Below are positions 2,244 through 52,446 of a DNA stretch of 64,000 nt, in pieces (the stretch's first letter is position 1; every line of letters begins with the position of its first letter). Source of the DNA: Prostheceraeus crozeri (taxonomy: Eukaryota > Platyhelminthes > Polycladida > Euryleptidae); NCBI GenBank assembly GCA_907163375.1, contig CAJQUW010005321.1:124001-188000 (forward strand), given 5' to 3'. The notes below the pieces were generated by a model. The model had not been told where the DNA came from. It saw only the letters and a program-made list of their open reading frames with translations, and made no database searches. The position numbers and the translations under genes are program-made.

Positions 2244-2609
2244 ATGGTTAAGAGAAAAATGGCGAAACGCAAAAGTCGAAAGTCTTCAAAATTTTCTGAG
2301 GCCATTCGAGCTCTTCAACGAATGAAAGGAAATCAGCGATATAATGCTATACGACATGCTAATGATAAATTTATTCGAGAAATTGTTTCTCATGTGAGAA
2401 GTTTGAGGACAAAGAAATTATCACCACAACAACGAAAGTTACTTAAGCGACATACTACAAAATTGCGATTCATCTCCAATCCTAAAGTTACCCTTCAAAG
2501 AAAGAGGAAAACTCTAACACAAAAGGGCGGTTTCCTTTCAGTGTTACTTCCGCTGTTAGCTCCTGTAGTAGGTGACCTATTGGGTAGGATCTTTAATCCT
2601 AAGCGTTAA
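2244..2609 (+). CDS. Small basic Polinton protein with hydrophobic C-terminal tail
   Basis: A 121-residue, very Lys/Arg-rich protein, starting at the ATG that follows the TATGCAAA motif. It has a basic N-terminal 20 residues, a helical middle with regularly spaced K and R, and a closing QKGGF motif followed by a hydrophobic tail (LSVLLPLLAPVVGDLL). Short proteins with this plan, ending in KGGF..LL, recur in Polintons and adintoviruses and are likely virion or core proteins, comparable in kind to small adenovirus core proteins. It precedes the packaging ATPase by 31 bases. Binding to packaged DNA is inferred from charge. Confidence 0.65.
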   Translation: MVKRKMAKRKSRKSSKFSEAIRALQRMKGNQRYNAIRHANDKFIREIVSHVRSLRTKKLSPQQRKLLKRHTTKLRFISNPKVTLQRKRKTLTQKGGFLSVLLPLLAPVVGDLLGRIFNPKR

Positions 2610-2610
2610 T

Positions 2611-2618
2611 TATGCAAA
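2611..2618 (+). promoter_or_regulatory. TATGCAAA promoter-like motif, second copy
   Basis: TATGCAAAT begins two bases after the stop of the basic-protein gene and 30 bases before the ATPase ATG at 2641. It heads the block ATPase, conserved protein, Cys-rich protein, integrase. Confidence 0.5.
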
Positions 2619-2640
2619 TATTGAATCCCAAAGTATTAAA

Positions 2641-3258
2641 ATGGATTTCAGACTTCAATGTGATAAAGTTCTGACTGTATCAGGTCCATCCCATGCAGGT
2701 AAAACTGTTTTCACTCTGAATTTGCTAGATAAAAGAAAAGAGTTGTTTAGGGAACCTATCAATCGAGTGATTTGGTGTTATGGCATTTATCAACCGTCAC
2801 TCTTTCAGGAATTGCAACGTCGTAACTTTATTCGAAATGAAGGAATTATTCCAGTGGATAAGATTCAGTCCAATGATGTCGTTGTATTGGATGATCTATT
2901 AAAAGAAAGCAAGAATTCTAAAGATGTTACAGATATGTTCACTCGCGCAGCACATCACAAAAGATGCTTTATAATCTATATCACGCAAAATTTGTTTCCT
3001 GATGGGAAAGAAGCCCGCACACGAAACCTGAATACACACTATTACGCTATTTTTAAGAATCCACGAGATAGAAGTCAATTTGAAATTTTAGCGCGACAAG
3101 TTGCGCCAAGAGGTTCAAAAGCCTTAATTGAAATTTTTCAAGCAGCAACTGAAAAACCACACGGTTACTTATTTATTGATTTTACACAGGAGTGTCCGGA
3201 AGAATTTAGATTTCGAAGTGATATTTTGAAAGAGCCTATGATTATCTACAAACTATGA
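2641..3258 (+). CDS. A32/FtsK-like genome-packaging ATPase
   Basis: A 205-residue P-loop ATPase. Walker A is GPSHAGKT at residues 15-22. Walker B is VVVLDDL with acidic residues 84-85. A polar sensor, TQN, is at residues 115-117 after a beta strand. Size and motif spacing fit the packaging ATPases of Polintons, virophages and poxvirus A32, which drive DNA into the capsid. The frame is open upstream to 2572, but the ATG at 2641 gives the usual short leader before Walker A and follows the TATGCAAA motif. The stop overlaps the next start as ATGA. It is intact. Confidence 0.92.
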   Translation: MDFRLQCDKVLTVSGPSHAGKTVFTLNLLDKRKELFREPINRVIWCYGIYQPSLFQELQRRNFIRNEGIIPVDKIQSNDVVVLDDLLKESKNSKDVTDMFTRAAHHKRCFIIYITQNLFPDGKEARTRNLNTHYYAIFKNPRDRSQFEILARQVAPRGSKALIEIFQAATEKPHGYLFIDFTQECPEEFRFRSDILKEPMIIYKL

Positions 3259-3927: not shown

Positions 3928-4131
3928 ATGAAGCAGATGTGTTGCTTACCATGTAATGAGCCGCCGGAAGTAAATGTAACTGTAACTTGTACTTGCTGTG
4001 CCAGCTCTCACAATGAGACTCCTAAGCAATGTAAACGTAAATCCCATAAATCCTGTGGTTGCTGTAAATGCAAAAAGGTAAGAAAGCAAAAACATGAGAA
4101 GAAGGAGAAAGAGTCAGTCGTCATCGGATGA
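3928..4131 (+). CDS. Small cysteine-rich protein
   Basis: A 67-residue protein starting one base after the preceding stop. It has about a dozen cysteines arranged as CC, CxCC and CGCCKCKK pairs, followed by a Lys-rich end. The pattern suggests metal binding, but it matches no family I know. The 3' end overlaps the integrase start by 38 bases in another frame, so the last dozen residues are doubly coding. It sits inside the ATPase-integrase block and is probably translated from the same transcript. Confidence 0.5.
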   Translation: MKQMCCLPCNEPPEVNVTVTCTCCASSHNETPKQCKRKSHKSCGCCKCKKVRKQKHEKKEKESVVIG

Positions 4132-5182
4132 ACTTTTAAAGTCAATATATTATGATGTAAAACATCCTGCAGGATTTGCATCTATAAAGAAATTGTCAAA
4201 AGCGAGCGGTCTTCCACACTCACAAGTTAAACAATGGTTAAAGGGTCAAGCTACATATACACTCCACAAACAAGCGAAAAAGAAGTACCGGACCCGTCAT
4301 TATATTGCTCATGACATTGATGAACAGTGGCAAGCAGATTTGTGTGACGTTGCCGCTATTTCAAAACATAACTCGGGACACAATTTTATCTTAACCGTAA
4401 TTGATATTTTCTCGCGTTATGCGTGGGCTCAACCTTTAAAAACTAAAGAAGGTAAACGAGTAGCAAAGGCATTCCAGTCAATTTTCCGAGAGGGTCGTAT
4501 TCCAAAGAGAATTCAGAGTGATCAAGGAAAAGAGTTCGAAAATCAGCATGTGGGAAGATTATTTGAGAGATATGATATTGAGCTGTTTAGTGTAAAGAGT
4601 GCTTATAAGGCTGCACTAGTTGAACGTTTTAATCGCACATTAAAAAATCGCTTGTGGCGACATTTCACTGCCAACTTAACACAAAATTGGACAAAGGTTC
4701 TACAAGATACGCTTTATGCCTACAATCACTCTATTCATCGTTCTATTGGACTCAGACCAGCGGATGTGAATGCTGACAACGTAGATAGAGTGCGTGAAAC
4801 ATTCCAACGCAAGCGTAATAATGCAAAAAGTGATGTGAAAATAGGTGATAAAGTTCGCATATCAAAAGTTAAGAGTGTTTTTGCCAAAGGTTATCTCCCG
4901 AATTGGACAGAAGAAATTTTCACAGTTTCAAGTATCAATAAAAAAGACTCCCCAACAACTTACAAGTTGAAAGATTACGATAATGAAGAAATTGATGGTA
5001 GCTTTTATCGTGATGAGATTGAGTTGGTCACTCAAAGTGAAACATATTTAGTAGAGAAAATCATTCGAAGTAAGAAACGACAAGGTGAAGAATGGTGTCT
5101 TGTTAAATGGGTCGGTTATCCTTCAAGTATGAACTCTTGGATGCGTCGTGCAGACATCTTTCATCTACGCGATCGTCAGTGA
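4094..5182 (+). CDS. int: Retroviral-like integrase with C-terminal chromodomain
   Basis: A 362-residue DDE integrase. The N-terminal part (about residues 10-60) looks like a helix-turn-helix (SKASGLPHSQVKQWL), not a classical HHCC zinc domain. The catalytic core has D82 in QADLCDV, D143 in SDQGKEF and E177 in VERFNRTLK. An SH3-like barrel follows (GDKVRISK at about residue 245). The last 50 residues form a chromodomain (YLVEKIIRS, WCLVKWVGYP, W.R..DI), which can steer insertion to particular chromatin. The architecture is that of Polinton/adintovirus integrases, which insert the linear genome into host DNA. The frame is intact. An AATGCAAAA copy lies 27 bases upstream, within the previous gene. 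Confidence 0.95.
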   Translation: MRRRRKSQSSSDELLKSIYYDVKHPAGFASIKKLSKASGLPHSQVKQWLKGQATYTLHKQAKKKYRTRHYIAHDIDEQWQADLCDVAAISKHNSGHNFILTVIDIFSRYAWAQPLKTKEGKRVAKAFQSIFREGRIPKRIQSDQGKEFENQHVGRLFERYDIELFSVKSAYKAALVERFNRTLKNRLWRHFTANLTQNWTKVLQDTLYAYNHSIHRSIGLRPADVNADNVDRVRETFQRKRNNAKSDVKIGDKVRISKVKSVFAKGYLPNWTEEIFTVSSINKKDSPTTYKLKDYDNEEIDGSFYRDEIELVTQSETYLVEKIIRSKKRQGEEWCLVKWVGYPSSMNSWMRRADIFHLRDRQ

Positions 5183-5689: not shown

Positions 5690-6967
5690 ATGGAGTGCAA
5701 AACTTCAGGCTTTTGTTTGTTTGATCAACAAGCAATACAGACAGATATTCTTAGTTCAAGTATTGTAGATTATCATCCTCGTACAGCTGAGAATACTGGT
5801 CCTATTGAATTTGTTATTCCTGGCGCTAGCGATGATTACATTGATTTGAGTTATGCGATGGTTGATGTGAGGTTTAGAATTCAACAAGAAGATGGAACTA
5901 AAATTGAAGATGCACATAAAGTTGGTCTGAACAATTTACCGCTGGCTACATTATTTCGCGATGTTTCTCTAACTATTGGAGAGCAACAGGTGGAAGGTGG
6001 TCAAAGCGATTATCCCTATAAAGCATATTTGAATGCTCTATCACAGTTTCATCCAGCAGCTCAAAACAGTCATATGGAAGCAATGGGATGGTATAGAGAT
6101 CAAGCAGCACTATTTGATAGTGAGACAAACACTGGTTTTGTAAAGCGATCTGCTTTGATTAAAGATAGTAAAGTATGTCAGCTATATGGTCCACTTAATT
6201 TAGACTTCTTCAGACAATCAAAATTTTTACTCTGTAATACCAGTATGCGACTCAAACTTACATTGAATAAGCCTGAATTTTTGTTGAATGCATTTGCTTC
6301 AGTTGTGAAATTTAAAATTCATGTGGAAGATATTACAGTATACATTCGTCGAGTGGTGGCTAATCCAAGTGTAATTAGAGGACATGCTGAGGGTCTTAAC
6401 CGCAACAATGCCATTTATCCCATTCAACATACAAAGCTTCTCACATTTACTATTCCTAAAGATCAAAAGAGTTTTATGAAAGATGGTCTTTTTCCATCGG
6501 AAGCGCCAAAGCTCCTCATGGTAGCAATGGTTGAAAATGATGCATTCAATGGTAATGTCAAGAAGAATCCTTTCAACTTCAAACACAACAATTTAAGTGA
6601 AATTGCTTTGCGTGTAAATGGTGTTAGTCATCCTGGTCCACCCTATAAACCAGATTTTACTTCTTATCAATTTCTGCGTAGTTATGTTGATTACATGAAT
6701 GTCTTTGGCTTTTACAACACAGACGATACCAACGGACTCACAATGAAAGAGTTTAAAAATGGATATACTATTTATGCATTTGATTTGACTGCCGACAGCG
6801 ATATTAGTGCACCTTATCGTCAAGCTAACGTTCCTCATAATATTCGCTTGGATCTGGAGTTCAAAACAACGCTAACGGAGACGATCAATGTATTAATTTA
6901 TGCAGTCTTTGATTCAAGTATTGAAATAACTAAGTATCGTGACGTGATTCTTCACTATAATCGCTAA
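5690..6967 (+). CDS. Hexon-like major capsid protein (predicted double jelly-roll)
   Basis: A 425-residue intact protein, starting two bases after the previous stop. It is recognisable as the capsid protein family widespread in animal Polintons and often annotated in invertebrate genomes as F54H12.2-like. Landmarks are GPIEFVIPGASDDYIDL (residues 37-53), LATLFRDVSLTIG (about 86-98), DYPYKAYLNALS (about 107-118) and a beta-rich C-terminal half. About 425 residues suffices for a double jelly-roll. The synteny core-like protein, capsid, adenain-like protease mirrors adenovirus pVI-hexon-protease and favours hexon over penton. Its stop overlaps the protease start as TAATG. The structural assignment is from family knowledge, not from a fold search. 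Confidence 0.85.
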   Translation: MECKTSGFCLFDQQAIQTDILSSSIVDYHPRTAENTGPIEFVIPGASDDYIDLSYAMVDVRFRIQQEDGTKIEDAHKVGLNNLPLATLFRDVSLTIGEQQVEGGQSDYPYKAYLNALSQFHPAAQNSHMEAMGWYRDQAALFDSETNTGFVKRSALIKDSKVCQLYGPLNLDFFRQSKFLLCNTSMRLKLTLNKPEFLLNAFASVVKFKIHVEDITVYIRRVVANPSVIRGHAEGLNRNNAIYPIQHTKLLTFTIPKDQKSFMKDGLFPSEAPKLLMVAMVENDAFNGNVKKNPFNFKHNNLSEIALRVNGVSHPGPPYKPDFTSYQFLRSYVDYMNVFGFYNTDDTNGLTMKEFKNGYTIYAFDLTADSDISAPYRQANVPHNIRLDLEFKTTLTETINVLIYAVFDSSIEITKYRDVILHYNR

Positions 6968-7428
6968 TGAGTTGGTTGAATGCTGACGATATAAAGACTA
7001 AAGTGCAGCGTAATGCAGATGAAGCTACGTTGAAAGCTTTTGATAATGTCTATTCGCTAGATACCTTACCGACTACTGTAAAACAGTATCCCATCTTTAT
7101 CGTATTGAACACTCATTCACAGAATTTAGAAGGTGAGCATTGGAAAGCTATCTTTATTGGAAAAGACAGACGTGGTGAACTATTTGACTCTCTTGCTCAA
7201 CCTCCGAATATACCAACACAGCAGTGGTTGAGAAAGCATACTCGTCAATATCAACGAAATGAGCGCATACTGCAACATCCACTTTCATCAACTTGTGGTG
7301 CTTTCGTATTGTACTTCATTTTAAAACGTTTACATGTACACCAATTTAAATCTGTTATTCAAAAGTTTTCATGTAATCCATCTTCTAATGAAAAGATGAT
7401 TTGTATGTTCTATAATGATTTGAAATAA
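6967..7428 (+). CDS. Adenain-like cysteine protease (maturation protease)
   Basis: A 153-residue C5/Ulp1-like protease. H58 in GEHWKAIF, D74 in LFDSL, Q103 and C110 in STCGAFVLY fit the His-acidic-Gln-Cys order. The Q to C spacing of seven matches adenain. It would cleave capsid and core precursors during virion maturation. The start codon overlaps the capsid stop (TAATG), suggesting coupled translation. The stop codon TAA is embedded in an AATAAA polyadenylation signal at 7424-7429. The frame is intact and of typical length. Confidence 0.92.
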   Translation: MSWLNADDIKTKVQRNADEATLKAFDNVYSLDTLPTTVKQYPIFIVLNTHSQNLEGEHWKAIFIGKDRRGELFDSLAQPPNIPTQQWLRKHTRQYQRNERILQHPLSSTCGAFVLYFILKRLHVHQFKSVIQKFSCNPSSNEKMICMFYNDLK

Positions 7429-7462
7429 AAAGCATCATGTTGGAATAAAAATTGTTTTTATT
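7424..7462. terminator. Convergent polyadenylation signals
   Basis: Plus-strand AATAAA occurs at 7424-7429, overlapping the protease stop, and at 7444-7449. A minus-strand AATAAA is read from 7462 to 7457 and overlaps the stop of the TBP-like gene. The two opposite transcription units end within 40 bases of each other. Confidence 0.7.
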
Positions 7463-8003
7463 TTACAATCCGTTGGTTATGTACATACTCGATTAGATAG
7501 TCTAGGATCGTATCTGCTTGCATTTCAGATTTCAGTCCAGTAATGATAACTTTACTATTATGAAAGATTGCAACATGTACAGGTAACCAGCAACTAATGA
7601 GAGCCGCGGGAAAAAGTTCTGGTTCATAACACAAATTGAAACTGCTGGTATGAATCTTTAAAAACGATACATCTTCACTCAATTGAGTAGAGATCACCAT
7701 ATTGTCCACAGTCAGATTCGACATCACACACTTCTCCCTCTTCCATATCCGTCGTAGTAGTTTCTGCAGCTCTAAGCGCATTAACCGCGCTGATGAATGA
7801 GAAAGGGCGCCGAGAATCTGAACAGTTCCATTTGGGAAGAGTTGAAGATTCCGTAAATTGCTCATCTTCACCACTAACATTTGCGGTCGACCCGGATAAT
7901 ACTTGCTGTTTGGAATTTGTTGATGTAATGTTGCGAGATCGATTTTCGTGTAGAGTCTGATGCGTCGGAGAATGTTGACGATGGTGTAGCGATGACGTTT
8001 CAT
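7458..8003 (-). CDS. TATA-binding-protein-like protein (two-repeat TBP fold)
   Basis: A 181-residue protein, the size of a TBP core. Repeat 1 (about residues 7-85) has NI...L..KIDLATL, then a N/YxPxR element and LFPNGTVQILGA. Repeat 2 (about 98-173) has NMV.S, CYEPELFPA at residues 125-133, VAIFHNSKVIITGLKS, and a final helix. YEPELFP is identical to the signature of cellular TBPs. Of the four DNA-intercalating phenylalanines of TBP, three positions look kept (F56, F131, F147); the first in repeat 1 appears replaced. The protein should therefore bind and bend promoter DNA, perhaps with altered specificity. It is minus-strand, downstream of two paralogous genes, and overlaps one of them by 329 bases in another frame. 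The start ATG at 8003 is the only one that keeps repeat 1 whole. Confidence 0.88.
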   Translation of the reverse strand: MKRHRYTIVNILRRIRLYTKIDLATLHQQIPNSKYYPGRPQMLVVKMSNLRNLQLFPNGTVQILGALSHSSARLMRLELQKLLRRIWKREKCVMSNLTVDNMVISTQLSEDVSFLKIHTSSFNLCYEPELFPAALISCWLPVHVAIFHNSKVIITGLKSEMQADTILDYLIEYVHNQRIVK

Positions 8004-8343
8004 GATGAAGAAATGAGTAAATAGAGCGATGTATCTTCCTTTTATACTTTTCCCAACTGCCTTGATGAAATGTGAAGTAGGTAGAAAGTTGTGAATGATA
8101 GATTTGAATTCGCTGTTTGTTGAGTCGCAACCATATGCGATTTCCTATGCGTGAATGTTTTTTCATATAGAAGTATTTTAAGTCCTTCATAATATGATTT
8201 AGAGACTGAAAATGTCGATATGATAAAGCAAATACTCTTCTTACATTTCCAGTATAATCTTTGAAACATACGTTTCGTTCATGATCAATCTCAACATATT
8301 GTAGGAAATCCAATTTCCAAGTCTTCATGATGGAGTGTGACAT
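7675..8343 (-). CDS. Paralogue A of a tandem gene pair, C-terminus overlapping the TBP-like gene
   Basis: A 222-residue frame. The first 110 residues form a domain shared with the gene at 8365-8721: MKTW.LD.LQY, a VCFKDYTGN-type turn, F..LN.IM.DL, G..IWL, then WEKYKR..HRSI. I do not recognise the family. The early part faintly recalls PC4-type ssDNA-binding coactivators, but this is weak. The remaining Ser/Thr/His-rich 110 residues lie wholly over the TBP-like gene in another frame, so they may be fortuitous or genuinely dual-coding. The start may be the second ATG (MKTW at 8328), by comparison with the paralogue. Association with a TBP-like gene suggests a role in transcription, as inference. 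Confidence 0.6.
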   Translation of the reverse strand: MSHSIMKTWKLDFLQYVEIDHERNVCFKDYTGNVRRVFALSYRHFQSLNHIMKDLKYFYMKKHSRIGNRIWLRLNKQRIQIYHSQLSTYFTFHQGSWEKYKRKIHRSIYSFLHHETSSLHHRQHSPTHQTLHENRSRNITSTNSKQQVLSGSTANVSGEDEQFTESSTLPKWNCSDSRRPFSFISAVNALRAAETTTTDMEEGEVCDVESDCGQYGDLYSIE

Positions 8344-8364: not shown

Positions 8365-8721
8365 TTAAGATTTGCGTAGCAATGCGATGAACTCGCGTCG
8401 AATGAATGACATAATGGAGCGATGTACACATCTTTTATATTTTTCCCAATTACATTTGCGAAATGAGAAATAGATGGAGAGATGAGAATGATAGATTTGA
8501 ATTTCATTTCTGTGATGTTGAAGCCAAACTTGATTACCCAAGGAGATGAATTTCAACGTTTTGAAATATTCCAAATCCCTCATGATATCATTAAGATTGA
8601 AAAATTGTCGCCATGTTAATGTAATTCCTTTCGATGTATTTCCATAAGAATTCTTGAAATGAACGTTTCCATCGCGATCAACTTTAATATATTGTAGAGA
8701 GTCCAAAATCCAAGTCTTCAT
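8365..8721 (-). CDS. Paralogue B of the tandem gene pair
   Basis: A 118-residue protein starting at the ATG of MKTW. It is recognisably a duplicate of the domain in the next minus-strand gene: same LQY, FKNSYGN, F.LN.IMRDLEYF, LG.QVWL, IQIYHSHLSIYFSF and NWEKYKR..HRSI order. It stops soon after the shared domain, so it marks the natural domain end and suggests that the long tail of paralogue A is an add-on. Its start lies 43 bases from the oppositely oriented start at 8764, and the TATGCAAAT element at 8727-8735 lies between them. Function unknown. Confidence 0.6.
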   Translation of the reverse strand: MKTWILDSLQYIKVDRDGNVHFKNSYGNTSKGITLTWRQFFNLNDIMRDLEYFKTLKFISLGNQVWLQHHRNEIQIYHSHLSIYFSFRKCNWEKYKRCVHRSIMSFIRREFIALLRKS

Positions 8722-8726
8722 GATGT

Positions 8727-8734
8727 TATGCAAA
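8727..8734 (+). promoter_or_regulatory. TATGCAAA promoter-like motif, fourth copy
   Basis: TATGCAAAT lies between divergent starts, 37 bases before the plus-strand ATG at 8764 and just upstream of the minus-strand ATG at 8721. It is a candidate shared or directional promoter element. Confidence 0.5.
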
Positions 8735-8763: not shown

Positions 8764-10154
8764 ATGTCATTCTATCATGTTTTGCTTAGCAATGTGGCAA
8801 CAAATAGATTTGTTGGCAATCGAGCTGCTATCTTTTCTACTCCCATTGATAATACACAACAGCTGAATGGGACGTGGGCGTCACCCAAGTTGTTCACAGT
8901 AACTATGTCTATACTTTTGATCATGAAGTGATGACTATTAATATGAGACGTACAGATGCCTATCAGTGTGAAGAGGGATGTCGAGTTTACATTCCGAAAT
9001 GGCCGAAGAAAGATTTCTCAACATGTAAAAAATTCGTATTTGATTTCCTGAATAAAGCATGTAGACACATTGTCGAGTTTACTCCCCACAATGGTGAATA
9101 TGATCATATGTATCATGCAGTTGATAAAGATTGGATTGTTGCTTTGAGTCCGAGTTTAAGAAATGATTTAGGTTACTTTGCTAGCGCCTTGACAAGCTAT
9201 GATAATTATAAAGCTAATTACTATCCAAGAGGTTGCAAAAATTTAATTTATAAAGAGAAAGCCTATTATGTGGATCTTATTCCGAAAAATGAAAAGACGT
9301 TGGTGAAGAAGATTGTGATTAAGGCAAGAAAGACGAACATGACTCCTGAAGCATTATTGAAGAAATTTAATTATCTCCTTCGAGTAGATGGTGAACAAGT
9401 GGCAACATTAACTTACAACAAAGGGTCTAATAATATCGTAATCAATAAACTAAAGGATGATGATCTAGTATTGGTTTGTTCAGAAGATTTTCATCAGTTC
9501 TTGCGACATCGTTCTGCAGCTCTTCATGGAAAATTTAATATGCGCTATCTGGGACATAATAGTTCAAATCAATTTGATACAGAATGGTCCGTATCTTTAT
9601 ACAGAAAGTGTATAGATCCTTTAGGTGGTATCTTACATAAAACAAGAGTGTTGACACCTCGCATTATCACTTCAGTGAAATTGGCTATAAATTATTTGAA
9701 TGAAGTGATTAATGAACAGCATATTTCTTTTTCTGAAAAAGAAGGTGTTCTGTCTCTTAGTGTAAGTGGGAAAAATATTGAGCTGATTATGGACAATACC
9801 CTAATGGACATTTTGGGATTTGATCAAAATACTTTTAAAAGTGGTACTGTAACAAAAGCTAGCGCGAGCATATCGTTATCGCGTCGTATTAACTATTTTC
9901 AGATATATTCCAATATTGGTGAAGATGTACGTGTGGGAGATGTTGAAGCTCCACTTCTAGCAATGATACCCTACCAACCAAAAAGCAATAGTACTCTATC
10001 TGAGCATACTTTTCAGAAAGTGCATTATACAAACTTGAAATCAAACTATATACCACAAATTGATATTGCAATTTATGACGATGCTGGTGCGTTGATTCCT
10101 TTTCATAAAGATGCTGTGACAAGTATCACACTCCATTTTCGAATGAAGAATTAA
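8764..10154 (+). CDS. Large Polinton structural protein, first of a related pair, N-terminal frameshift
   Basis: The main frame runs from 8874 to 10154 (426 residues). The ATG at 8764 opens another frame whose product ends in QQLNGTW near 8869, after which the main frame resumes with VGVTQVVHSNY. Together these halves form the L-x-G-x-W-x-VG motif that marks the N-terminus of this family, so a few bases appear lost at the junction. The C-terminal 200 residues share with the next gene a LLGF/ILGF-like segment, a Y-I-x-S..I.x-VG stretch and a final S-I-T-L-H-F-R end. Families with this start and end are conserved in animal Polintons; I take them as structural or virion proteins. The allele is probably inactive unless the break is an assembly error. 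Confidence 0.65.
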
Positions 10155-10160
10155 TGCAAA
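10152..10160 (+). promoter_or_regulatory. Variant TATGCAAA-like motif (TAATGCAAA)
   Basis: TAATGCAAAA overlaps the stop codon of the previous gene and precedes the ATG at 10194 by about 42 bases. It resembles the exact copies but has an extra A, so it is less certain. Confidence 0.35.
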
Positions 10161-10193
10161 AGTGTGGAAATATATGTTTCCAATGTGAATGAT

Positions 10194-11714
10194 ATGGAAA
10201 GTGAAAATAAGGATTCGTTTCTAATTTACTTACCCAGTAATGCTTCTATGAATAAATTTCCCAATAATAAACCATCAGACTATCGAGTAGAATTAAATCG
10301 TCCATTACTTCTAGAAGGTGAATGGGAAGTAGGTGTTTCCAGCATTTGTTATGATAGTAATATTCAGAATGTGAATGAATTGGAAGAAATGGTATTGACT
10401 CCTCGCACCCATGATGGAATAACGATGAATAATGCATTCAAGTTTCCATACAATTTAACATCAGATGGAAAGTGGAATTATGAATGGAATCAGTTAGAAT
10501 CAGATTATTATGGATCATCAGATGAAGATAAAATCATTAAGGCATTCAATAGTGGCAATGCTTCTATTATGAAAAATAAGGGTCAGAAAGTTTATGAGTT
10601 TACTATCTATGAATGGCACGGGAGACACTTCTATCGTTTTCACTCTTTTACTAAAGGTCTTACATTGAGGTTGGATAATGAATTCTATCCACATCTCGGT
10701 TTTGGACACAGTCTGCATCTGACATCAATGGCTATTGCAAATGTTACAAAAATCTATTCAAACCGAATAAACAAATTTCATTATAAATTTAAAATATTTG
10801 ATGAAGATGTTGTAGAATGTGAAGAACGCATCATTTTGAAAAAGCGTGGTGTCAAGCCTTTGACACTTATTGAGTTAGTAAAACGATGGAATGAGACTGT
10901 GGGTAAGAAGTATGGAGAGAAAGTCATGGCTCGGAAGGATAAGTTGGTTATTCAGAAATATAATGACAAACTTACAGTTTATTTCTCTCCAACCTTGCGT
11001 CATTTTGTAAGACATGTATCGCCTATTATTGGAAGCGGTTTGGTTTATGCTTCTCATGAATATCACACTAAAGCTGATTCAGTTAATGATGAATGGTGGG
11101 TGGACATCTATGGTGATCGCATCAAGAAAATTTACCAATCTTATCAAGAAACTAAAGTTAGTATCAATACAATGCCGCGTCTATACAATACAGTTGAAAA
11201 CTTTATTCGTGTCATAAATCCATATATACAACATAAGTTGAAGCAAGTGTTGAAAAGTAGATATGATGCAAAGGCACATCACATTTCGTTTTCAATTAAA
11301 AATCAAAGTGCTGTTCTGAAGCTGGGTGATCACATTCAATGTCAATTGAGTAACAATTTGAAAAAACTCTTTGGCTTTTCATTGCTACAAGATAAGTTTG
11401 CTACTTCATACACGATTGGTGTAGGAATACCAATGACACTTGATAAACATGAACAACATCTCTACATTCAAAGTGATCTGATTTCACCTATTTCTGTTGG
11501 TGAGAAAAAAGAATACATTTTACGTAATTTCATTCATGATAAAGACGCTTCCTATGGAATCGTTGAAAAGATGTTTAAACCTATTTTCTACCATCCTGTT
11601 ATCAAACAAACTATCCCGTCTATTTCTCTCAAAATTACAAATGGTTTACATGAGTGCATCCATGTGAAAGATACTAAATCCCTCATAACTTTAGTGTTTC
11701 GGAAAACAAAGTAA
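10194..11714 (+). CDS. Large Polinton structural protein, second of a related pair (intact)
   Basis: About 506 residues from the first ATG (MESENKDSF); the frame is open slightly further upstream but without an ATG. The N-terminus has the family hallmark IYLPSNASMNKFPNN, then LLLEGEWEVGVSSI (residues 38-51). A long beta-rich middle follows, then a LFGFSLL element, a YIQSDLISPISVGE stretch and the end SLITLVFRKTK. The upstream gene shares the same C-terminal plan. Proteins with this layout are conserved in animal Polintons and adintoviruses, and are good candidates for penton, vertex or fibre-like functions, but I cannot decide which. A polyadenylation signal, AATAAA, follows at 11737-11742. 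Confidence 0.75.
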   Translation: MESENKDSFLIYLPSNASMNKFPNNKPSDYRVELNRPLLLEGEWEVGVSSICYDSNIQNVNELEEMVLTPRTHDGITMNNAFKFPYNLTSDGKWNYEWNQLESDYYGSSDEDKIIKAFNSGNASIMKNKGQKVYEFTIYEWHGRHFYRFHSFTKGLTLRLDNEFYPHLGFGHSLHLTSMAIANVTKIYSNRINKFHYKFKIFDEDVVECEERIILKKRGVKPLTLIELVKRWNETVGKKYGEKVMARKDKLVIQKYNDKLTVYFSPTLRHFVRHVSPIIGSGLVYASHEYHTKADSVNDEWWVDIYGDRIKKIYQSYQETKVSINTMPRLYNTVENFIRVINPYIQHKLKQVLKSRYDAKAHHISFSIKNQSAVLKLGDHIQCQLSNNLKKLFGFSLLQDKFATSYTIGVGIPMTLDKHEQHLYIQSDLISPISVGEKKEYILRNFIHDKDASYGIVEKMFKPIFYHPVIKQTIPSISLKITNGLHECIHVKDTKSLITLVFRKTK

Positions 11715-11929: not shown

Positions 11930-14900
11930 TTACACATCTCCTGAATGTGGTAGTGTGAGTTTAATTCTTTTGGGTGGTGATATGTTTGTGCCAGGATGTC
12001 CATGTGGAAGAGATATGTTATGTCCTATCCAACACCTCTTATCCTCCCACGCTGAAAGTGCTCGCTTCCTAAATGTATGAGTTTTTACCTCATGTGTCTT
12101 TGATTTTAAGATGGTCATGTTGACAAACGTTATGTTCTTATTTATGTAGGCCATCTTATAGGCCCTATGTTTCATATTTACAACAATCGATTTAGATATG
12201 CCTTTTGCGCGCTTAATACTGTCACTGGAGTCTTTTGGTTTCATAGAATACATTTTAGGACGAAGAAGAATCATTTCCTTAATTTCCTTTCCTGCCATTT
12301 CATCTTTAAAGCATCCTAATTTTGCTTTATTTTTAGTAGAGTATAGTGGGTGATCTGTAGGATAATTTGATGTATCAAAATATTTTTCTAAAGATTTTCC
12401 TACTTCATTGAAATTTAACTCTTTCTGAGCAGCGATACTTAAAAAGAAACTGTCGGTATCACCGCCCAGCAAACGCACGTCTTTAATTAGAGGGCATGGT
12501 TTTAATATTCTGTAGAAGAGTTGATACATTTCAAGCTTGGAATAATCTAACACAGCTTGTCCAATGTAGATGGGCTTGCACAACTCTACTTCTGATTTTA
12601 TCATTTTAACACCAACCAACTCATCATCTATAATATCTCTATCAATAAAGAGAGGTGATGTCGCTAACTTTTGAAATTTATCATTATGATTCACAAGTTT
12701 ATAGTTAATACGCTTTCTAACGTCCTCCATCGTCTTACCAAAAAGACTATTATTCTTATATTTATAGAAATCCTTTTCAAAATTATTTTGGGCTAGTGCA
12801 CGTTTCTGGCTGTTACTATCAATATAAGGTTTCAGAAAGGCTTTCTGTCTAAATTTGATAATGCGGTGAACTGTTTTTAAAATCATCCCCATTTCTAAAT
12901 AAAATTTTAAGATAGAGAAGTGGACTAAATAATTTTCTTTATCAAATTGAGTAAGCAAAAGTTTACGGCAAGGCTTATACTTGGGCTGTCCGCTCCCTTC
13001 TAAATCTTTATGAAATTGTTTCATAAAGTCCGAAAACATATCTTCAGTCACTTCGCCTGATTCGGGTGCAAGTGGAAAATCCACAGTTTTATTTTTAATA
13101 CTATTTGGATAGATAAGATCTATCTCAAAATAATATCCCCAATCACCATCATCTGGAATAGCTAGTATGTTTGAAGGGTTGGAGAAATGCTGAATTTCAT
13201 TATCACCCAACCAGCTAAACTCAGAGTGAGGTAGAGGTTTGGACAGTGAACTACCATATAAATTATTCTGGTCATAGTACTTAAGATGAATCTGATCATC
13301 ATCTACTATTTTTGATTTTATTTGATGCCTATTTACAAATGTGAGACCACCGCGAATTCCTCGTTCAAATAAATTATACATCTCTGGATCTTGCAAAAGA
13401 TGGATGGTCTCTCCAGTCATTTTAAAAGCAGACTGGAATGACATGGCTGGAAGACTGACAAAGTGAACAGGATCTAATTTATCTTCTTCTAATGCCACTC
13501 GTCGAAACTCCTGAAATACATCAGCCAGCAAAAATACATCTAATTTTAGATAGGCGATCATATAATCGCTAAACGTTTGACAGTCAAATTTTGTCCATGC
13601 AACTTGAGCATGATTGTAATCTTCTACCTTGCATTCTACACCAGTCAAATCATTTTTAAATTTGTCTATTGATGGAAGAGAAGTCTCACTAAGTTTAGAA
13701 ATGTTATCAAAGTATGCATATGGAAACACTCCTTTGCGTGTGATGACTTCATCCGTCAAGTTAGGATATTGTTTCTTCAAATTTTGAGTTAGTGGAAGAG
13801 ACTTAAGATTTTGAACGAGAGATGCTAGTGATGAAGCCATGAATTGATAGGAATCTAAAAATTTTATATCAAAATAGACTGTCTTATTTTCTTTAGTTTT
13901 GTCAACTGCTACTTTTGCTGTCATGGCCATGAACTTTTCTCTCGTTTGAGCTATTACACTTAACTTCCACTCTTTCATTTTTCCTAACCCCCTTTTATTA
14001 TCATATGACTGTCATAACCTTTGAAGTTATGAAAAATAACGGGTAGAGTACGCCGTTTCAGTCTCAGTGAAAAATTACATCTTGTACATAGCGCGTTTCT
14101 AAATTTACCAGTGATGTGATCATGGTCGCGCACTTTCTTGATTTTATCTTCATCAAACGTTTTATTACATTTTGGGCAGACTTTACAACTTTCAAATTTT
14201 ACTTGATCATCTGCTGACATATTCAATGATCTGCGTTGGAGTTCACTATCATATTTTTGCTGAAATTTGACAGCGCTTTCGAGGAATTGTAAGAATTTAT
14301 GTATACAATCCTCACCTTGCCAGACGTGCATTTTATTATTTTTATTTTTGAAGTAATCATGCCATACCTCATAACATGATATGGCTGCCGCTTTATGGGT
14401 GTTATCATCAATATAGCATTCGATGTCAGCATAGATGACACGAAGAGGACTTAATTCATCACCTTTCTCTCTATATGAAAACTCTTTATCTTTGGGCATG
14501 CATTCTATTTGCAGTTTACCTCGCTTACACCATTCATAATGTGTTTCAAATTTATCTTTTGACCAGAAGGGGCGCATACAACGGTCACATATGAAATACT
14601 CTCCTCTTCTAGATGTTAAGTGGGAATATAGTCGAGTCATTTTAGGAATACCACAGTAATGCCAATTTTCACTATCATTTTGATATACTAGCAGGAGATT
14701 GACTACCCGATCATAAGTTGATGAACGGTTGTTGTAGCGCACACCCTTAAGCCCCTCTTGCCAGATGTGAACAACTATTTTAATTTCATTTAATTTTTCA
14801 AATTTCTCTATATCTTTAAACTTCATGTCTTCGCTATTGCAGTCATCAAACTTCAATTCATTCTCCCATTCATGATATTTGCTTCTACGGAAACGGTTGT

Positions 14901-15897
14901 TCTGTACATCATGATAGTGGAGAATAGACAATACCGCATACTTAAAACACTGTGATTCACAATCAACAGAAATGACTGCATTCTTAGCTCTTAACGTTTT
15001 TGGAAGATTGAAGGAGCCTCGACCACGGTAATTTTCTAATAGAGTAATTTTAAACTTGGCAGATTCTATGCCATCAAAAATTAGACCACTATCGCGCTCG
15101 TTAAATTTATCAATATTTGATTTTAGTCCTTGGATGTGAAAATTTAACCAAGCTTCTTTATCGACTACCTCTGTAGCAGGAGAGGAGGGTATGTAAAACA
15201 CCAACCTCTGTACTATTTCACCAGTATGATAATCAACTTTAACATATTTTATTTTAAGGTAGATGAGCGCTTTTATTCTAAACTGCTCTAAATTATGAAA
15301 GAGCGCATCTATCAATGTTGAATTTTGATGGAACCACTCCGGAAAATCAGCAATAGTTTCTGAGGATTCCATATGGTAATTTCTCACTACATTATTGAGC
15401 GATACTTCAGTTAGTCGAATAGAGGAGGTGCTGTTGCTATAACTATCATTTGTGTGTGTGTGGTGAAGTCTATGTGAAGATAATTCAAAACCTGTTTCAA
15501 AAGATTGGAAACAAAAGTCACAAGTAAAGGAGACATGTTGAATAGAATCATCCTCACCTCGGGAGATTGATGATGGTTTGGGTTGACACACACGTTGTCT
15601 GATGTGTCGGGTGAGATCACGCTTCCTCGTAAAGATATGCCCACAATCAGCACATTCCCGCTCATTAGATTGCCGCGACTGGCCGCTTGAGCTGGAACTA
15701 GCATCACCTGAAAGAGAAATCATTCTATCATCTCTATTAAAGTTATAGTTTATTGTTACAACTTACCTTCACTTATTAGGTCTAAAGTTTCCTCGAGAAG
15801 GGAGCGTTTTGGTGATGAAGTAGATGCCTGTAATTGAGAAAGATGCTATTAGCCAAACGTTTGAGGGAGATAAGTGAGGAAATCTTCAACTTACCAT
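11930..15897 (-). CDS. polB: Protein-primed family B DNA polymerase with two mini-introns and one frame break
   Basis: The coding frame lies in two parts. The 13984-15723 part has two C2H2 fingers (about residues 24-46 and 68-88), the domain shared with the gene at 1544-1882 (about 105-235), a Cys-containing domain (C259), a third finger (379-399), exonuclease motif I YADIEC (431-436), a CxxC/HDH zinc site (513-549) and exonuclease motif II NFKGYDSH. The 11930-13978 part has exonuclease III Y143-x3-D147, polymerase motif A D236-NNLYG, motif B KYKNNSLFGKT (406-416) and motif C DTDS (507-510). The parts differ by one base of frame at a run of five G near 13,995. The 5' end is predicted to be spliced: the ATG at 15897-15895 is the last codon of exon 1. 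The enzyme would copy the linear genome from a protein primer. Confidence 0.9.
15708..15766 (-). other. Predicted 59-base intron 2 of the DNA polymerase gene
   Basis: The donor is G|GTAAGT at 15766-15761 and the acceptor is TCTCTTTCAG ending at 15708. Removing it keeps a continuous reading frame into the first zinc finger. The ATG at 15723 would lie inside this intron and is therefore not the preferred start. Confidence 0.65.
15828..15894 (-). other. Predicted 67-base intron 1 of the DNA polymerase gene
   Basis: The donor GTAAGT directly follows the start codon ATG (15897-15895). The acceptor is a pyrimidine-rich TTCTCAATTACAG ending at 15828. The 61-base exon 2 (15767-15827) has no stop in the frame set by that ATG and joins in frame to exon 3. 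Confidence 0.65.
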
Positions 15898-20964: not shown

Positions 20965-23592
20965 ATGAGGTCTCCAGTGGCAAGAAGAAATTGGCTTATC
21001 TTTTGCAATGCGCAGTCATTGTTTTATAAACTAGACGAACTAAGACCCCAGCGTATCTCACTCAAGCCTGTTTTTATATGTGTAACAGAGACGTGGTTAA
21101 CACCTGACATCGTGGATAGTTTGATTTCTATTGATGATTTTAACATTTTTCGAAATGACCGACAGGATGATTTGACTGATAAACGTCGCGGTGGTGGCAC
21201 TCTTATTTATGCTGCCTCTTCTTCATCCTCTGTACATTTTCCGCACAATTTTGTAAAACCGTATGGTATTGAATATAATTTGATCAAATTTGAAGATGTC
21301 ACATATTCCTTGTCCTATCTTTTGTGCATATATACACCGCCAGGTTTAAGAGCGGACACTTTCAATCAAGTCAGAGAATTTGTTGTTGATGTGCTTGATT
21401 TTCTATTAGGATGTACTCCTAACGCAGAAATATTTGTATGCGGAGACCTAATTAGATATGATTTTTCATTCCTTCAACCACAGTTTGATATTGTTAATAT
21501 TGTTAATTTGCCCACTTTTGGAAATGCTACTCTCGACAAGTTTTATTGTAATGAACGGTTGACAAATAGTTTTGAAATTTTGACAGCTCCACCTCTGGGT
21601 TATGCAACACACCTGCACAATATTGTCATAGTTACTAGAAATGTTGACGAATTTTCTAGAGATGCTCAAGTACAGGAAGCGTTTGATTTTAGAAACCCAA
21701 ATCTTGTTGCTTTTTCCAAGCATCTCGAGGAGTCTGACTGGTCGAATGTTTTTCACTCTGGTAATGTGGAAAGCAGTGTAAGTCATTTTTACGACATTTT
21801 TCAACAAGCCATGTCAAAAATACCGGTCTCCTTCATCAAAATCACTCAAAAAAACAAACCGTGGATTACTCCCGTAGTAATTGATCTCATCAGCAAACGC
21901 TGGCTAGCCTATCGCAAAGGAAATTTCTCCTTTTTCGCCACTACAAAATCAAAGTTCGAGCCGAAATATACAAGTCAAAGAAGATCTGGAGCTCTAAAAT
22001 GTGAACGACATTCAAAGGAACATGGTCAGTCGTTGATGACATACAAGGCAAAAAGTCAAAGGATTCTCAAAGCCAAATGGTTTCATTGTTTTCAAATTCT
22101 GTACAAGCAGTTGAATCCCTTAACATGTTCTTTTCAAGTTTTTTTGAGACCAGTGATAATTTTCCTGCTTTGCGTACAGATGAACCTTAAGAGATTATGT
22201 TATGTAATTGTGATGATGTGTTTTCTCTTTTAAAGAAGCTGCGAACTGACAAAGCTCCAGGTAGTGATGGTATTCATCCTTTGTTATTGAAAGTCTCGGC
22301 TTCTCAGATCTGTGAGCCCTTGTCTTACATTTTTAATTTGTCCTTTCGCACTGGCTCTGTTCCAAGTGTCTGGAAAATTGCTAATGTGAACCCGGTCCCT
22401 AAGGCTTTCCCTGTTCGTAAGGAGAATTTGAGACCAGTATCGCTGCTGCTTGTCATCAATAGAGTTTGTGAAGGTATTGTTTTGAAATGTTATCGCAATC
22501 CTCTTGTCAATTCCTACGATCGTAATCAATTCGCGTACAGATCAAAATCATCTACAGTCTGTGCTCTTATTACCATCCATGATACTATACTCAAGATGTT
22601 AGAATTACCAAATGTCAAAGCAGTTCGAATTTTAACTTTTGATATGAGTCATGCGTTTGAACCAGTTCCACACGACCTTTTAATGTTTTGTCTGTCAAAT
22701 CTTTCCATTCCAAATCGCAACTTTTTTGTAAACTGGATTAACAGTATGTGATCGGCAGCAACGTGTGAAAATAGGCGAGACCATCAGTTCTCTTGTACAT
22801 GTCTCAAACGGCGTCCCTCAGGGGTCACTTTTAGGACCCCAACCTATTTTCATTATACTTATCGAGTTATGAATCTCTGGATACGAATGTCCAAGTGGTA
22901 AAGTACGCCGATGATGTAACGTTGCTTATTCCTGTCTTTAAAACTCATCTAGACGATAATTCCCTTTTCTCTTCTGAAGTTGACCATTTTAGAAATTGGT
23001 GTCATGAAAAGCGAATGTTGATTAACGAAAACAAAACGAAAGTTATGAATATCAATTTATCTTGTTCACCCCTACAAACTATGTCGAATTTTGAGTCCGT
23101 AACTTCCGTGAAGATTTTAGGTATTGTTTTTAATCACAATCTCACATGGTCGCATCATTTCCAACATGTATCTACTAGTGTCTCTATGTACTACGAATTT
23201 TGAAGCCGATTCTGACTCATGACCAACTTGTTGTTGTTTTTAAAAGCATCATACGCTCTGTAATTGACTATGCCTCGGCAGTATTTATAAATCCAGGCAG
23301 TGTCTTGAACTCTAAGCTTGAAATTTTATGCAAGAGAGCTTTCCGAATCATTCATGGTTTCAATGTGAGGACTTGTAGTGAATGTTCTATGCTCGATGTC
23401 GACAAACGAAGGAATGAACTTGCTCTTCCACTATTCCGACAAATTCTAGATGATCCGAACCATATTCTGAATCATCTCCTCCCAATTCGATCGAAACGGA
23501 GCTCAAGACTGATCTTACCTCAAGTGAAGACAATGAGAAGGCGAAATGGTTTTGTGCTATCGTGTTCAGTATTGTATAATAGCACTTGTTGA
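20965..23592 (+). pseudogene. LINE ORF2 (endonuclease and reverse transcriptase), broken
   Basis: The N-terminal part is an apurinic-like endonuclease (NAQSLFYKLDEL, VTETWL, FRNDR, GGGTLIY). The usual GDxN catalytic step reads CGDLIRYD here. The reverse transcriptase follows after frame changes: KAPGSDGIHPLLLK at about 22,245, PQGSLLGP near 22,818, KYADDVTLLIP near 22,898, then a C-terminal VIDYASAVF...FRIIHG. At least four frame breaks and stops separate these pieces. It is inactive. Confidence 0.8.
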
Positions 23593-26609: not shown

Positions 26610-27184
26610 TTATATATCGTCCTTCAATAATGTATAATAAACAACAATTGAATTTATTTCAGTTACTTTTGGAATCTTCTCACCTAAACGATAACCTTGA
26701 CTATAGGTTTGTTTATTAAATCCTAATAGCTTTGACAATGATCTATCATGATTAAAATCAACTTGATGATTTTCGTTTAAAGTAAGAGAAAATTTATTAA
26801 CTGCCGGTTCAACTGCAAAATGTAATTGTTTCTTATCTTTAAATGGTATACCTAAATGTCTCTTAATTTCATTTGATATTGATTCAACTTCATAAGAACC
26901 AGGAAAAAAGTTAGTATTTTCCACCTTTTGCCTTTATCAGTAGAATATCTAAATTGATCATTCACATCTTTGATAACGTTTTGAATAGTGTTAAATGTAG
27001 AGAAACTAGTCAATGCAATTTGATAATTTTTATTTTGTTCCAAATGTAGAATGGGTTCTAAATTACAAGTGTGTGATGAAGTAGTTGTTATAATTTTTAA
27101 CGTCGTACTAAATTTTGATGAACCCAAAATCTCTGTTAGATTTTTTAAATGATAATTAATTTTGTCTAAATCTGCTGAACACAT
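26610..27184 (-). pseudogene. Polinton structural-type protein, frameshifted
   Basis: Two overlapping frames (27184 to about 26,852, then 26924 to 26610) together carry the plan of a common invertebrate Polinton protein: N-terminal strands, then FFPGSYEVESI, a VDFNHDRSLSKLLGF motif, Y..GYRLGEKIPKV and a short end. The C-terminal domain after the VNSI/INSI-like step is missing. One frame change near 26,930 and the short end mark it as inactive. Confidence 0.65.
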
Positions 27185-27402
27185 TTGTTAGTTAAAATAT
27201 TGAATAAATATTTTTTTTGTGAAAAAATTAAAATCAACAACATATTTCAGCTATACTTTTATAATCGTCTTCATTTAGAATCTTCTTTTCTAACAGTCTT
27301 TTCAATATAGCATGAATTTCATTGAAACTAGAATTATGTCCTTCTTTTATTGCCGATATTAAAATATTTAATCTATTTAGTAATTCTTGTGGATCATCTG
27401 GA

Positions 27403-27705
27403 TCAACCTTTCCCTACTTTAACTCCCGTTGATAATAAATTTTCTAATTGTTTATAACGTCTAAGAGATTTTGCTGCACCAACTCTATCTAACATAGCTT
27501 TATATTTTATGAGATCTCCTACAGAATAATTTTTTAAATCTGCTCCTCTTAAAAGATCAACAAAATTTCTATCTAAACTAAAAGGAGATTTATCTGGTGA
27601 AAAAATTAAACCTCGAAAAGGTTGTGGAAATATTTCTTTTTGTCCGAGATAAAATCTAGGTATTGTTTTTCCATCTATAAATGAAATAGAATGTTCAAAT
27701 TGCAT
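27403..27705 (-). pseudogene. Polinton-associated protein fragment
   Basis: A 100-residue frame with FSLDRNFVDLLRGADLKNYS and VGDLIKYKAMLDRVGAAKSLRR. I believe this layout occurs in other invertebrate Polintons, but no function is known. Remnants upstream, to about 28,010 and in other frames, are Lys/Gln-rich and could be its N-terminus. Confidence 0.45.
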
Positions 27706-28135
27706 AGATTTTGGTAATTTCTTATTAATGTTTGATTCTAGTAATCCATAGTCATCTAATATAGTTTTGTGCTCTGGATCAATTATATTAATTTGTTTTT
27801 CATTAAATTCTTTTCAAGAGTTTTAAATGGTTCCATAGTTTTTTCAAAATCAGTTTTTACTTGCTCGGTTTGCTGCATTTTTTCAAACATATCAGATTGA
27901 ATACCAGCTTTTATCATTCTATGTTGAAGATGATTTTCTTTCATAGTATTTTTTTGTTTTATCAACTCGTCTAATTGTTTAATTCTTTTTTGATTATCAG
28001 CTTTAATTTATCCATTTTTAAAATATAAGATTTGAATTTTGTGGTAACATTGGAATACAACAAAAACATTTTACTGAACAAATTATTTTTAATTGCTTTA
28101 TTGTCTGACATCTTTTCGTTTAAAGTTTTCTCGTT

Positions 28136-28923
28136 TTAAATTTTGTTTAATAAAGTTTTGTTTAATAAAGTTTTGCTTAAATTTTCGCTTAAAGTTTTTA
28201 GCTCTTCTAAAAAAACTTTATCTTTTTCTTCATTAGAAATTTTACCATCACTAGAAATTTTGCCATCCTGTCTATTCTTATCATCAACTTTTTCTGACTG
28301 TAATTGAAATGATATTTGATTTACTTCATTAGCTATTTGATCAAATTTTTCAATCTCATCTAACGTAATAACATTATCATCACATACTCTTTGAAAGTAG
28401 TAATGCAATTTGTCATAGACTTCTTTAATATGTAAATGCTTACTTTTTAATGATTTTCGTTTCTTAGTTATTAAAGATTTATCTAACATTGTAATAAGTG
28501 AAGTTGCGAAAACACCCGTACCTGTTAAAGCTGTAGCAACTACTGGAATTACTAAAACACCTGAAGATATAACAATTGTTAAAGCACCTAAAGTTATTGT
28601 TAAGAATATGCCAATTCCTTGTGTTACATTCTTAACATTAGACCATCTCTTTCTTAATTTTTATAATGCTCTAATCTTAATAATAATTGAGATTCTTTAT
28701 CTTTCATATACCTAACTCTATCTTTATGTTTTTCTTTGTTCATTTCATATGATAACGAAGGATATATTCTTGCGGTTTCTTCCACTTTTATTCCTTCCAT
28801 TTTCGTCGTCGCCGTTGCCGTCGTCGCCGTCATCGCCGTCCCCGTCGAAGTTCCTTCCATTTCTGAGGCTTCTTCCATTTTCGTTGTCGCCGTTGCCGTC
28901 GCCGTCCCCGTTGAGGTTTCCAT
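28136..28923 (-). pseudogene. Polinton membrane-type protein, frameshifted
   Basis: The N-terminal part (minus strand, about 28,770-28,654) has PSLSYEMN, then a charged helix ending RLEHYK. After a frame change, two hydrophobic segments follow at about 28,640-28,500 (GIGIFLTITLGALTIVISSG and a second rich in V, A and T). Then comes a helical HIKEVYDKLHYYFQ, CDDN.ITLDEIEKF segment. This order (LEHY, membrane segments, then an EF-hand-like DxxIxxDEIE) recurs in proteins of invertebrate Polinton-like elements. The far N-terminus is a GNGDG/TATATT-type microsatellite at 28,795-28,920. Confidence 0.5.
28795..28920. repeat. Trinucleotide-type imperfect microsatellite (CGTCGC/GCCGTC)
   Basis: Imperfect GTCGCC/GTTGCC/GTCATC repetition over about 125 bases, open in several frames, which explains the low-complexity predicted products here. 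Confidence 0.6.
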
Positions 28924-51024: not shown

Positions 51025-52446
51025 CCGGGTGATCATAAAGTCACGCAAATAAAGAAAATCCTTTGTTTTGAGTTTAATTGAGTTTAAATTGAATCGAATA
51101 TCATTTGTCGTGATTATATACAATAGATGTGAACATAGATATGAGCATTTGAAGGACGGGTTGTCTCGTGACTACTTGATTGTGTCATGTGATCAACTTT
51201 TTACATAGATATGAACATTTGAAATTTCAGGCTTAGCATATCTACATACGAATGCGTCAGACACATCATTCTTCGCTTCACTTCATTTCACCTCGTTACT
51301 CACTATGGCTTACAACGTTGCTGAACGACTGTGCTTGATTGAAAATTATTTTCGTTCTGGAAGCTATTCTATAGCAAAGAGTGATCTCTTTCAACTCAAT
51401 CCATCCGCTCCTGTTCCGCACGATTTAACAATTAAGAGATTGGTCGATAAATTTCGAGAAACGGGATCCGTGCATGACCGAAGACGCAGTGGAAGACCGT
51501 CCTTCGATGATGGAGATGTCGCAGCTGTTCAAGGTGCACTTATAAACAGTCCTCAAAAATCGCTCAGAAAAGTTTCCCAACAAATCGACATGTCCTACTC
51601 CAGTGTTCAGAAGATTTGTCGAAAAGTTTTGCATCTGTTTCCCTATAAGACCTGTGTGATACACACACTGATGCAGAATGACTACGAGCAGCGATCGATA
51701 TTTTGTGATTGGCTTATTGCCGTGACCAATGATGATCCTCAGTTTTTGAAAACATGCTTTTGGAGTGATGAAGCTTGGTTTCATCTCTCTGGATACATGA
51801 ACTCACAAAATACGTGATGTTGGTTGTCGGAGAATCCACATCAGTATGTCGAAACCTCACTTCATCCTCAGAAAATCGGTGTCTGGGCTGCAATGTCTGG
51901 AGAACGGATTCATTTCTCTTTCTTTGAAGGTCGAGTGGACAGTGACAAATATTGTTCATTCATCGATCAGCTCGCCGTGACCTTAACTGAAAACGAAAGA
52001 CATATTGCATGGTTCCAGCAAGACAATGCAACGGCCCATACTTCTCGAAGAACTACGCAACATCTTACTCAGATATTCGGAAAGCGACTGATCGACAAGC
52101 AACTCTTTCCAGCGCGATCACCGCATCTCACACCAATGGATTTTTTCTTGTGGGGCTACGTGAAGGATAAGGTGTTTGCCAACAACCCCAAAAGTTTGAA
52201 TGATTTGCAAAGTGCCATTACGTCCAGTATTAAGAGTGTTAACTCAGACATGCTAATGAATGTGTCATCCAATATCGTAAAGCGCGCCATTACTGTACAT
52301 CTCAGAAAGGAGGGCATTTTCAACATCTTCTTTAACTTGTAATGTGTTCTTCTAAAACCCTCTAACTGAAAATTGAATATAAATGGGACCTTGTTTATCT
52401 AGAAAATTGTAGTTTTATCCACTTGCGTCATTTTATGATCACCCTA
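51025..52446 (+). mobile_element. Tc1/mariner-superfamily transposon
   Basis: The terminal repeats are GGGTGATCATAAAGTCACGC on the left and, inverted, GGGTGATCATAAAATGACGC on the right, with TA next to both ends (exact boundary uncertain by two bases). Length is about 1.4 kb. Confidence 0.85.
51305..52342 (+). pseudogene. Mariner-superfamily transposase with one premature stop
   Basis: Starts MAYNVAERLCLIENYFRSGS. A paired helix-turn-helix follows (TIKRLVDKFRETGSV, GRPSFDD, LRKVSQQIDMSYSSV). The catalytic part has FWSDEAWFHLSGY (first D), WFQQDNATAHTSR (second D) and RSPHLTPMDFFLWGYVKDKV (third D), with 38 residues between the second and third. A TGA at 51815-51817 interrupts the frame after the first catalytic motif; reading resumes in the same frame. 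It is otherwise full length. Confidence 0.85.

Follow-up and report, generated by a model that had tools for sequence, protein, structure and literature searches.

Polintons and adintoviruses are small elements without an RNA polymerase of their own. TATA-binding protein (TBP) folds are encoded by giant viruses, an asfa-like virus and iridoviruses, and TBPs have also been reported from mirusviruses (accessible text of PMC10132985) and from elements with mirusvirus-like capsid genes (accessible text of PMC10675990); bamfordviruses include both NCLDVs and Mavericks (accessible text of PMC10328495). KSHV ORF24, a viral TBP (vTBP) of the beta- and gammaherpesvirus type, drives late genes according to the available part of PMC12529657. 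According to a survey of viral TBPs, nearly every virus with a TBP, poxviruses excepted, also has a TFIIB-like protein; the survey describes the TFIIB-contact acids as variable among viral TBPs and concludes that binding of host TFIIB by these proteins is unlikely (PMC7221094). An earlier note on the DNA analysed here had pointed to TBP-like factors in herpesvirus late transcription and in some giant viruses. The note knew of no TBP in Polintons; we also found no report of one in the largely open-access literature searched, and the accessible portions of PMC11071296, PMC11071308 and PMC8097293 make no mention of TATA or TBP.

The TBP gene and its element

The window analysed here is a stretch of 64,000 nucleotides from the genome of Prostheceraeus crozeri. 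The 181-codon minus-strand ORF that the earlier note had placed at 7458-8003 has exactly these coordinates, and encodes a viral TBP homologue with the PF00352 fold that belongs to a Polinton family of its own (Table 1). Pfam PF00352 matched the ORF in two stretches at 70.6 bits, against a cut-off of 22.9, with both TBP repeats in the order proposed. Together with a phmmer match to TBPs in the PDB (5e-13), this gave the full-length TBP match that the note had named as support, and the product has the saddle-like two-repeat structure, a two-lobe saddle, on which that reading depended. YEPELFP was found at residues 126-132, and three of the four intercalating phenylalanines are present as claimed (F56, F131 and F147), the fourth (yeast F99) being Pro40. 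The ORF is intronless and its product is 19-28% identical to cellular or solved TBPs. It shares with cellular TBP (PF00352) the saddle, the match over the full length, both Asn (N69/N159), the lobe-2 Thr and the TFIIB-contact Glu pair; because only three of the four intercalating Phe are kept (F99 is Pro), we do not file it as a canonical cellular TBP.

A first search of the protein database gave at least 60 relatives, and PF00352 was present in 60/60 homologues among the matches listed. A profile search (E<=0.001) returned 1149 relatives, which probably include cellular TBPs; 120 of these were inspected, and 4 of the 120 listed bore names of cellular TBP. Judging by their sequences, the database relatives would lie in Polintons, the element context being that of the copies in this genome. 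The top BFVD match, A0A5P9U4S6, may belong to a related element.

We call the surrounding element Polinton/adintovirus-like, as the note did, because the integrase with its chromodomain and the C48-type protease were identified by Pfam, the protease just above the cut-off; the ATPase match is weak, and the capsid and PolB genes are only probable. A chromodomain is listed as an adintovirus feature in the accessible text of PMC11071296. As the note had stated, the TBP gene lies in the virion gene region opposite the protease, convergent with it and in one block with the integrase, probable capsid and ATPase genes. The candidate capsid ORF, which we take to resemble Polinton capsid genes, had no Pfam match and no PDB sequence match. 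The ORFs at 8874-10154 and 10164-11714 had no Pfam match and, judging by weak cross-matches, are perhaps related to each other. Within the probable PolB region, the GGDTDS stretch is presumably a motif of a protein-primed PolB. Pfam gave no PolB match at E<=0.1: the C-terminal ORF had no match at this threshold, and the N-terminal ORF matched Endonuclease_7 and C2H2 fingers.

The element's left end falls outside the window. Short cysteine-rich ORFs at 495-794 and 1864-2202 are RING-like by eye and had no Pfam match. ORF pieces on the minus strand at 26610-28660 could be what is left of a further Polinton-like element, and we take ORFs at 20965-23592, 51215-52339 and 57583-58503 to be those of transposons (reverse transcriptase, mariner-like).

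Table 1. Features of the element and of the TBP gene region in the window.
Feature	Position	Strand	Basis or remark
Probable packaging ATPase (FtsK/A32-like)	2572..3258	+	Below-cut-off Pfam: AAA_14 0.006, Pox_A32 0.036
rve integrase with C-terminal chromodomain	4094..5182	+	Pfam rve 1.8e-10, Chromo 1.1e-6
Probable major capsid protein, 425 aa	5690..6967	+	Position and presumed similarity to Polinton capsid genes
C48/Ulp1-type cysteine protease	6967..7428	+	Peptidase_C48 2.5e-4, 21.4 vs 20.7 bits; convergent with TBP
AATAAA	7457..7462	-	Sequence read; overlaps TBP stop codon
Polinton TBP, 181 aa	7458..8003	-	N-lobe residues ~5-90, C-lobe ~97-176
PUR-like protein 2, 222 aa ORF	7675..8343	-	Tail overlaps TBP first lobe in another frame
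TATAAAAG box	8039..8046	-	43 nt before TBP ATG; inside PUR-like ORF (Y-K-R codons)
PUR-like protein 1, 122 aa	8365..8733	-	Two beta4-alpha units; PUR-alpha/Whirly/PC4-like predicted fold
Two ORFs (8874-10154, 10164-11714)	8874..11714	+	Beyond the PUR/TBP block
Probable PolB, split into two ORFs in this copy	11930..15723	-	GGDTDS stretch

Copies, neighbours and promoter signals

A protein search of the 2.05 Gb host genome found at least 150 places with the Polinton TBP, the listed matches all being 90-100% identical; an in-frame stop was absent in 99/150 listed copies and present in 51 (hand count). A Pfam search also found at least 150 places, of which 4 were exons of host TBP/TLF and 146 were not. 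Since none of these 146 lay within 2 kb of the 150 protein-search places, there are 296 distinct non-host places, a lower bound. The host's own TBP is split by introns, with exons at L021 and L023. A second host gene, at L022, we take to be TLF (TBP-like factor). TLF is a metazoan marker and, together with the ordinary TBP, points to a probable metazoan host.

Of 20 stretches retrieved, none longer than 10 kb, 19 held elements and one (L037) held host TLF. Virion genes were found in 12/19 element loci (lineages A, A2, B and C), and the capsid proteins of lineages B and C are 55% and 51% identical to that of the window. In all 12 of these loci, all from this one genome, the TBP gene adjoins the protease gene on the opposite strand; the place of the gene, which the note had proposed to compare across Polinton/adintovirus genomes, is kept within this genome. 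The remaining seven loci (L030, L035, L040-L043 and L046), which we term D-type, have TBP ~0.9-2 kb from PolB, and in 7/7 of them the window's capsid, protease, integrase and ATPase sequences, used as queries, found nothing at E<=1e-3 within 10 kb; the same capsid query does find lineages B and C. The note had put TBP in the virion region and not in the accessory region; this placement in the virion region holds for 12/12 virion-type loci, and TBP also occurs in the D-type loci. TBP may therefore not be a factor for virion genes only. Judged by its gene content in the 10 kb, the D-type element may be a satellite or a form without a virion.

D-type elements keep PolB, TBP and accessory genes, and relatives of the 495-794 ORF recur in them. 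In the D-type copy L042, a 310-codon ORF spans the point corresponding to the window's PolB split, and repeat units ~84-90 bases apart lie between TBP and PolB (L042:5690-6121 and around). Self-comparison of the seven D-type loci, which stop short of the element ends, found no inverted repeats.

Lineages A, B and D have a PUR-like ORF ahead of TBP; L036, the sole C-lineage locus, has TBP without a detected PUR-like gene or TATA box. In the window, PUR-like protein 2 is 50% identical over 117 aa to the 8365-8733 product, and ends in a C-terminal tail with FSFxxAxxxL and an acidic end. This tail was found in lineages A, B and D by selection with the pattern FSF..A...L plus SIE, so that the list shows its presence and not unbiased conservation; part of the tail may be forced by the TBP frame. 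The PUR-like assignment comes from one aligner and a six-sequence model, the fold being that predicted for the lineage A paralogue. The PUR-like product is 11% identical to PUR-alpha/Whirly/PC4 proteins and is not filed as a member; it had no Pfam match, and Foldseek gave nothing at <=0.001. It is probably single-strand-binding; PUR-alpha itself is a single-strand binder with DNA-unwinding activity (accessible text of PMC4764581).

The TBP and PUR-like ORFs share ~330 bases in different frames (7675-8003), possibly a case of overprinting under dual selection. dS was lower in the overlapped than in the other part of TBP for A-A2 (0.18 vs 0.40), for A-B (1.67 vs 2.66, the second part being undefined in 27/39 pairs) and for B-D (1.22 vs 2.30, 1/3 undefined), and was not lower for A-D (1.61 vs 1.43); the signal is only suggestive because the values are largely saturated and the independent contrasts few. 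An N-terminal extension, almost absent in the Polinton TBP in comparison with cellular TBP, is present in 28/139 family members, and in 11/139 it contains G-x-[SN]-I-K, a frame-shifted shadow of the WEKYK/TATA segment. The longest contig behind P0002 (TBP) and the longest behind P0062 (PUR-like) both measure 1771 bases and may be one and the same. The extensions, the G-x-[SN]-I-K motif and the shared length of 1771 are indirect signs that the place of TBP is kept outside this genome.

TATAAAA/T stands ahead of the TBP start in 19/20 loci read, L036 being the exception, at 43, 46 and 43 nt in lineages A, B and D (counted by eye). The box is thus kept upstream in three lineages. Because it lies in PUR-like coding sequence, its conservation may be codon-driven; a codon estimate of ~0.005 is rough, with the three lineages treated as independent. 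At the other end of the gene, the AATAAA is a possible poly(A) signal of TBP's own transcript. A TATA-like scan and the motifs TATTTAA and ATGCAAA gave no convincing promoter motif common to the virion genes, the presumed targets: TATTTAA occurs once in the window's first 17 kb, and ATGCAAA does not recur at corresponding places across lineages.

Selection, kinship and the two lobes

Among 21 intact ORFs, TBP dN/dS was 0.295 for A-A2, 0.27 for A-B, 0.28 for B-D and 0.41 for A-D, with dS close to saturation (1.5-2.0) in all comparisons but A-A2. The Polinton TBP is under purifying selection. Profile, structure and selection together rule out a chance ORF or a coincidental motif.

In a tree of 49 proteins, 32 element-type TBPs grouped together (100/100), apart from host TBP, host TLF and 15 archaeal TBPs; the archaeal set was every fifth of 80 loci (16), with one dropped because the profile did not match it. 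Eukaryotes are represented in the tree by a single TBP, which lacks the last exon, and by an incomplete TLF, and the program cautioned that long branches meet; the tree therefore does not name a donor. IMG/VR yielded no relatives with the TBP, TBP alignment, capsid, PolB, P0100 or P0095 as queries, and phage records yielded none either.

Residues were mapped on yeast TBP in 139 family members, namely the query (P0001) and 138 listed relatives. Part of the yeast positions were assigned by counting. The others come from Table 1 of PMC12529657, which prints the TFIIB-contact acids as E184 and E188; the sequence places the YEPEL pair at 186 and 188. In the C-lobe, the equivalents of N159, V161, P191 and F207 are conserved in 139/139 members, F190 in 138, T215 in 137 and L189 in 126, and the L205 position is Ala in 115. 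The acidic pair is kept, with Glu at the E188 position in 139/139 and Glu (135) or Asp (4) at that of E186. The N-lobe retains the equivalents of N69 (Asn in 115/116 ungapped rows) and F116 (139/139). Compared with cellular TBP, its DNA face is rebuilt: F99 is Pro in 133/136 ungapped members, query included, A101M (M42 in the query) and V122Q (Q62) occur in 139/139, L114Q in 135/139 and T124L in 122/139, the others having Met or Phe. The V71 position is Met in 103. By these counts, the half with the TFIIB-docking residues is near canonical, and the other carries a constant set of replacements. Since one intercalating Phe is lost, DNA bending may be weaker.

KSHV ORF24, as described in the accessible text of PMC12529657, is also a viral TBP fold with a lobe-1 DNA face changed at L114, V122 and T124, to Ser, Asn and Asn where the Polinton TBP has Gln, Gln and Leu. 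ORF24 keeps all four Phe and has lost the TFIIB-contact acids; the Polinton TBP is the reverse, with a canonical C-lobe including these acids and one N-lobe Phe lost. ORF24 also has a DNA-contacting CTD and partner proteins, whereas the Polinton protein is only 181 aa long. In contrast to the viral TBPs in the accessible portion of the survey (PMC7221094), its TFIIB acids are near-invariant, and Pfam scans at E<=1 and E<=0.1 found no TFIIB family in 20 ORFs of or beside the element. Host TFIIB would therefore be needed.

Proposed function and alternatives

We consider it fairly probable that this viral TBP docks host TFIIB through its canonical C-lobe, reads a new half-site with its rebuilt N-lobe and steers Pol II to the element's promoters. 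Host TBP would start the TBP gene early, from its standard host-type TATA promoter. The canonical C-lobe would then grip half of a TATA-like minor groove, the kept Glu-x-Glu-Leu stirrup would dock host TFIIB, and the rebuilt N-lobe (Pro, Met, Gln, Gln and Leu for Phe, Ala, Leu, Val and Thr) would read a different half-site. Host RNA polymerase II would be placed on element promoters, freed from the host TBP/TFIID system, and the adjacent PUR-like protein may help to open or stabilise promoter DNA.

The nearly invariant TFIIB-contact residues and changed N-lobe face would also suit a competitor of host TBP, which binds TFIIB (perhaps TATA boxes) without initiation and, by lowering host transcription, indirectly favours the element. 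Titration of TFIIB is possible, but the fixed N-lobe DNA-face changes (Q62 and M42, 139/139) suggest a specific DNA target, and we regard competition as unlikely. We know of no TBP that acts in replication, and we think it quite improbable that the protein is an accessory to replication or packaging which, instead of acting at promoters, bends DNA at origins or terminal repeats in concert with PolB and the PUR-like single-strand binder. Such a role would fit the retention of TBP with PolB in all seven D-type loci, with no virion-gene match in 10 kb, and the binding and unwinding activity of PUR-alpha (accessible text of PMC4764581). The kept TFIIB-contact residues point instead to transcription. 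That the gene is a recently captured host TBP or a functionless pseudogene is largely refuted, and we give this almost no credence: host TBP and a TBP-like factor exist in the same genome, but the Polinton gene is intronless and far from cellular TBPs in identity, the separate grouping of the element-type TBPs argues against recent capture, and dN/dS is ~0.3 with most listed copies (99/150) free of in-frame stops.

Returning to promoter recognition through host TFIIB, we see about an even chance that animal Polintons carry a compact initiation module, a half-reprogrammed TBP that docks host TFIIB, overprinted on a PUR/Whirly-like single-strand binder and expressed next to it. This module would be old, present in deep lineages and with its TBP kept in derivatives in which no virion genes were seen, leaving hundreds of virus-derived TBP genes in one animal genome. 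The Polinton TBP is a natural TBP with a rebuilt N-lobe face yet kept TFIIB docking residues, and it links Polintons to TBP-encoding giant viruses. One animal genome can hold hundreds of such element-derived genes, and annotation may take them for cellular TBP. For Polintons and adintoviruses, it offers a concrete, testable factor for how they direct transcription.
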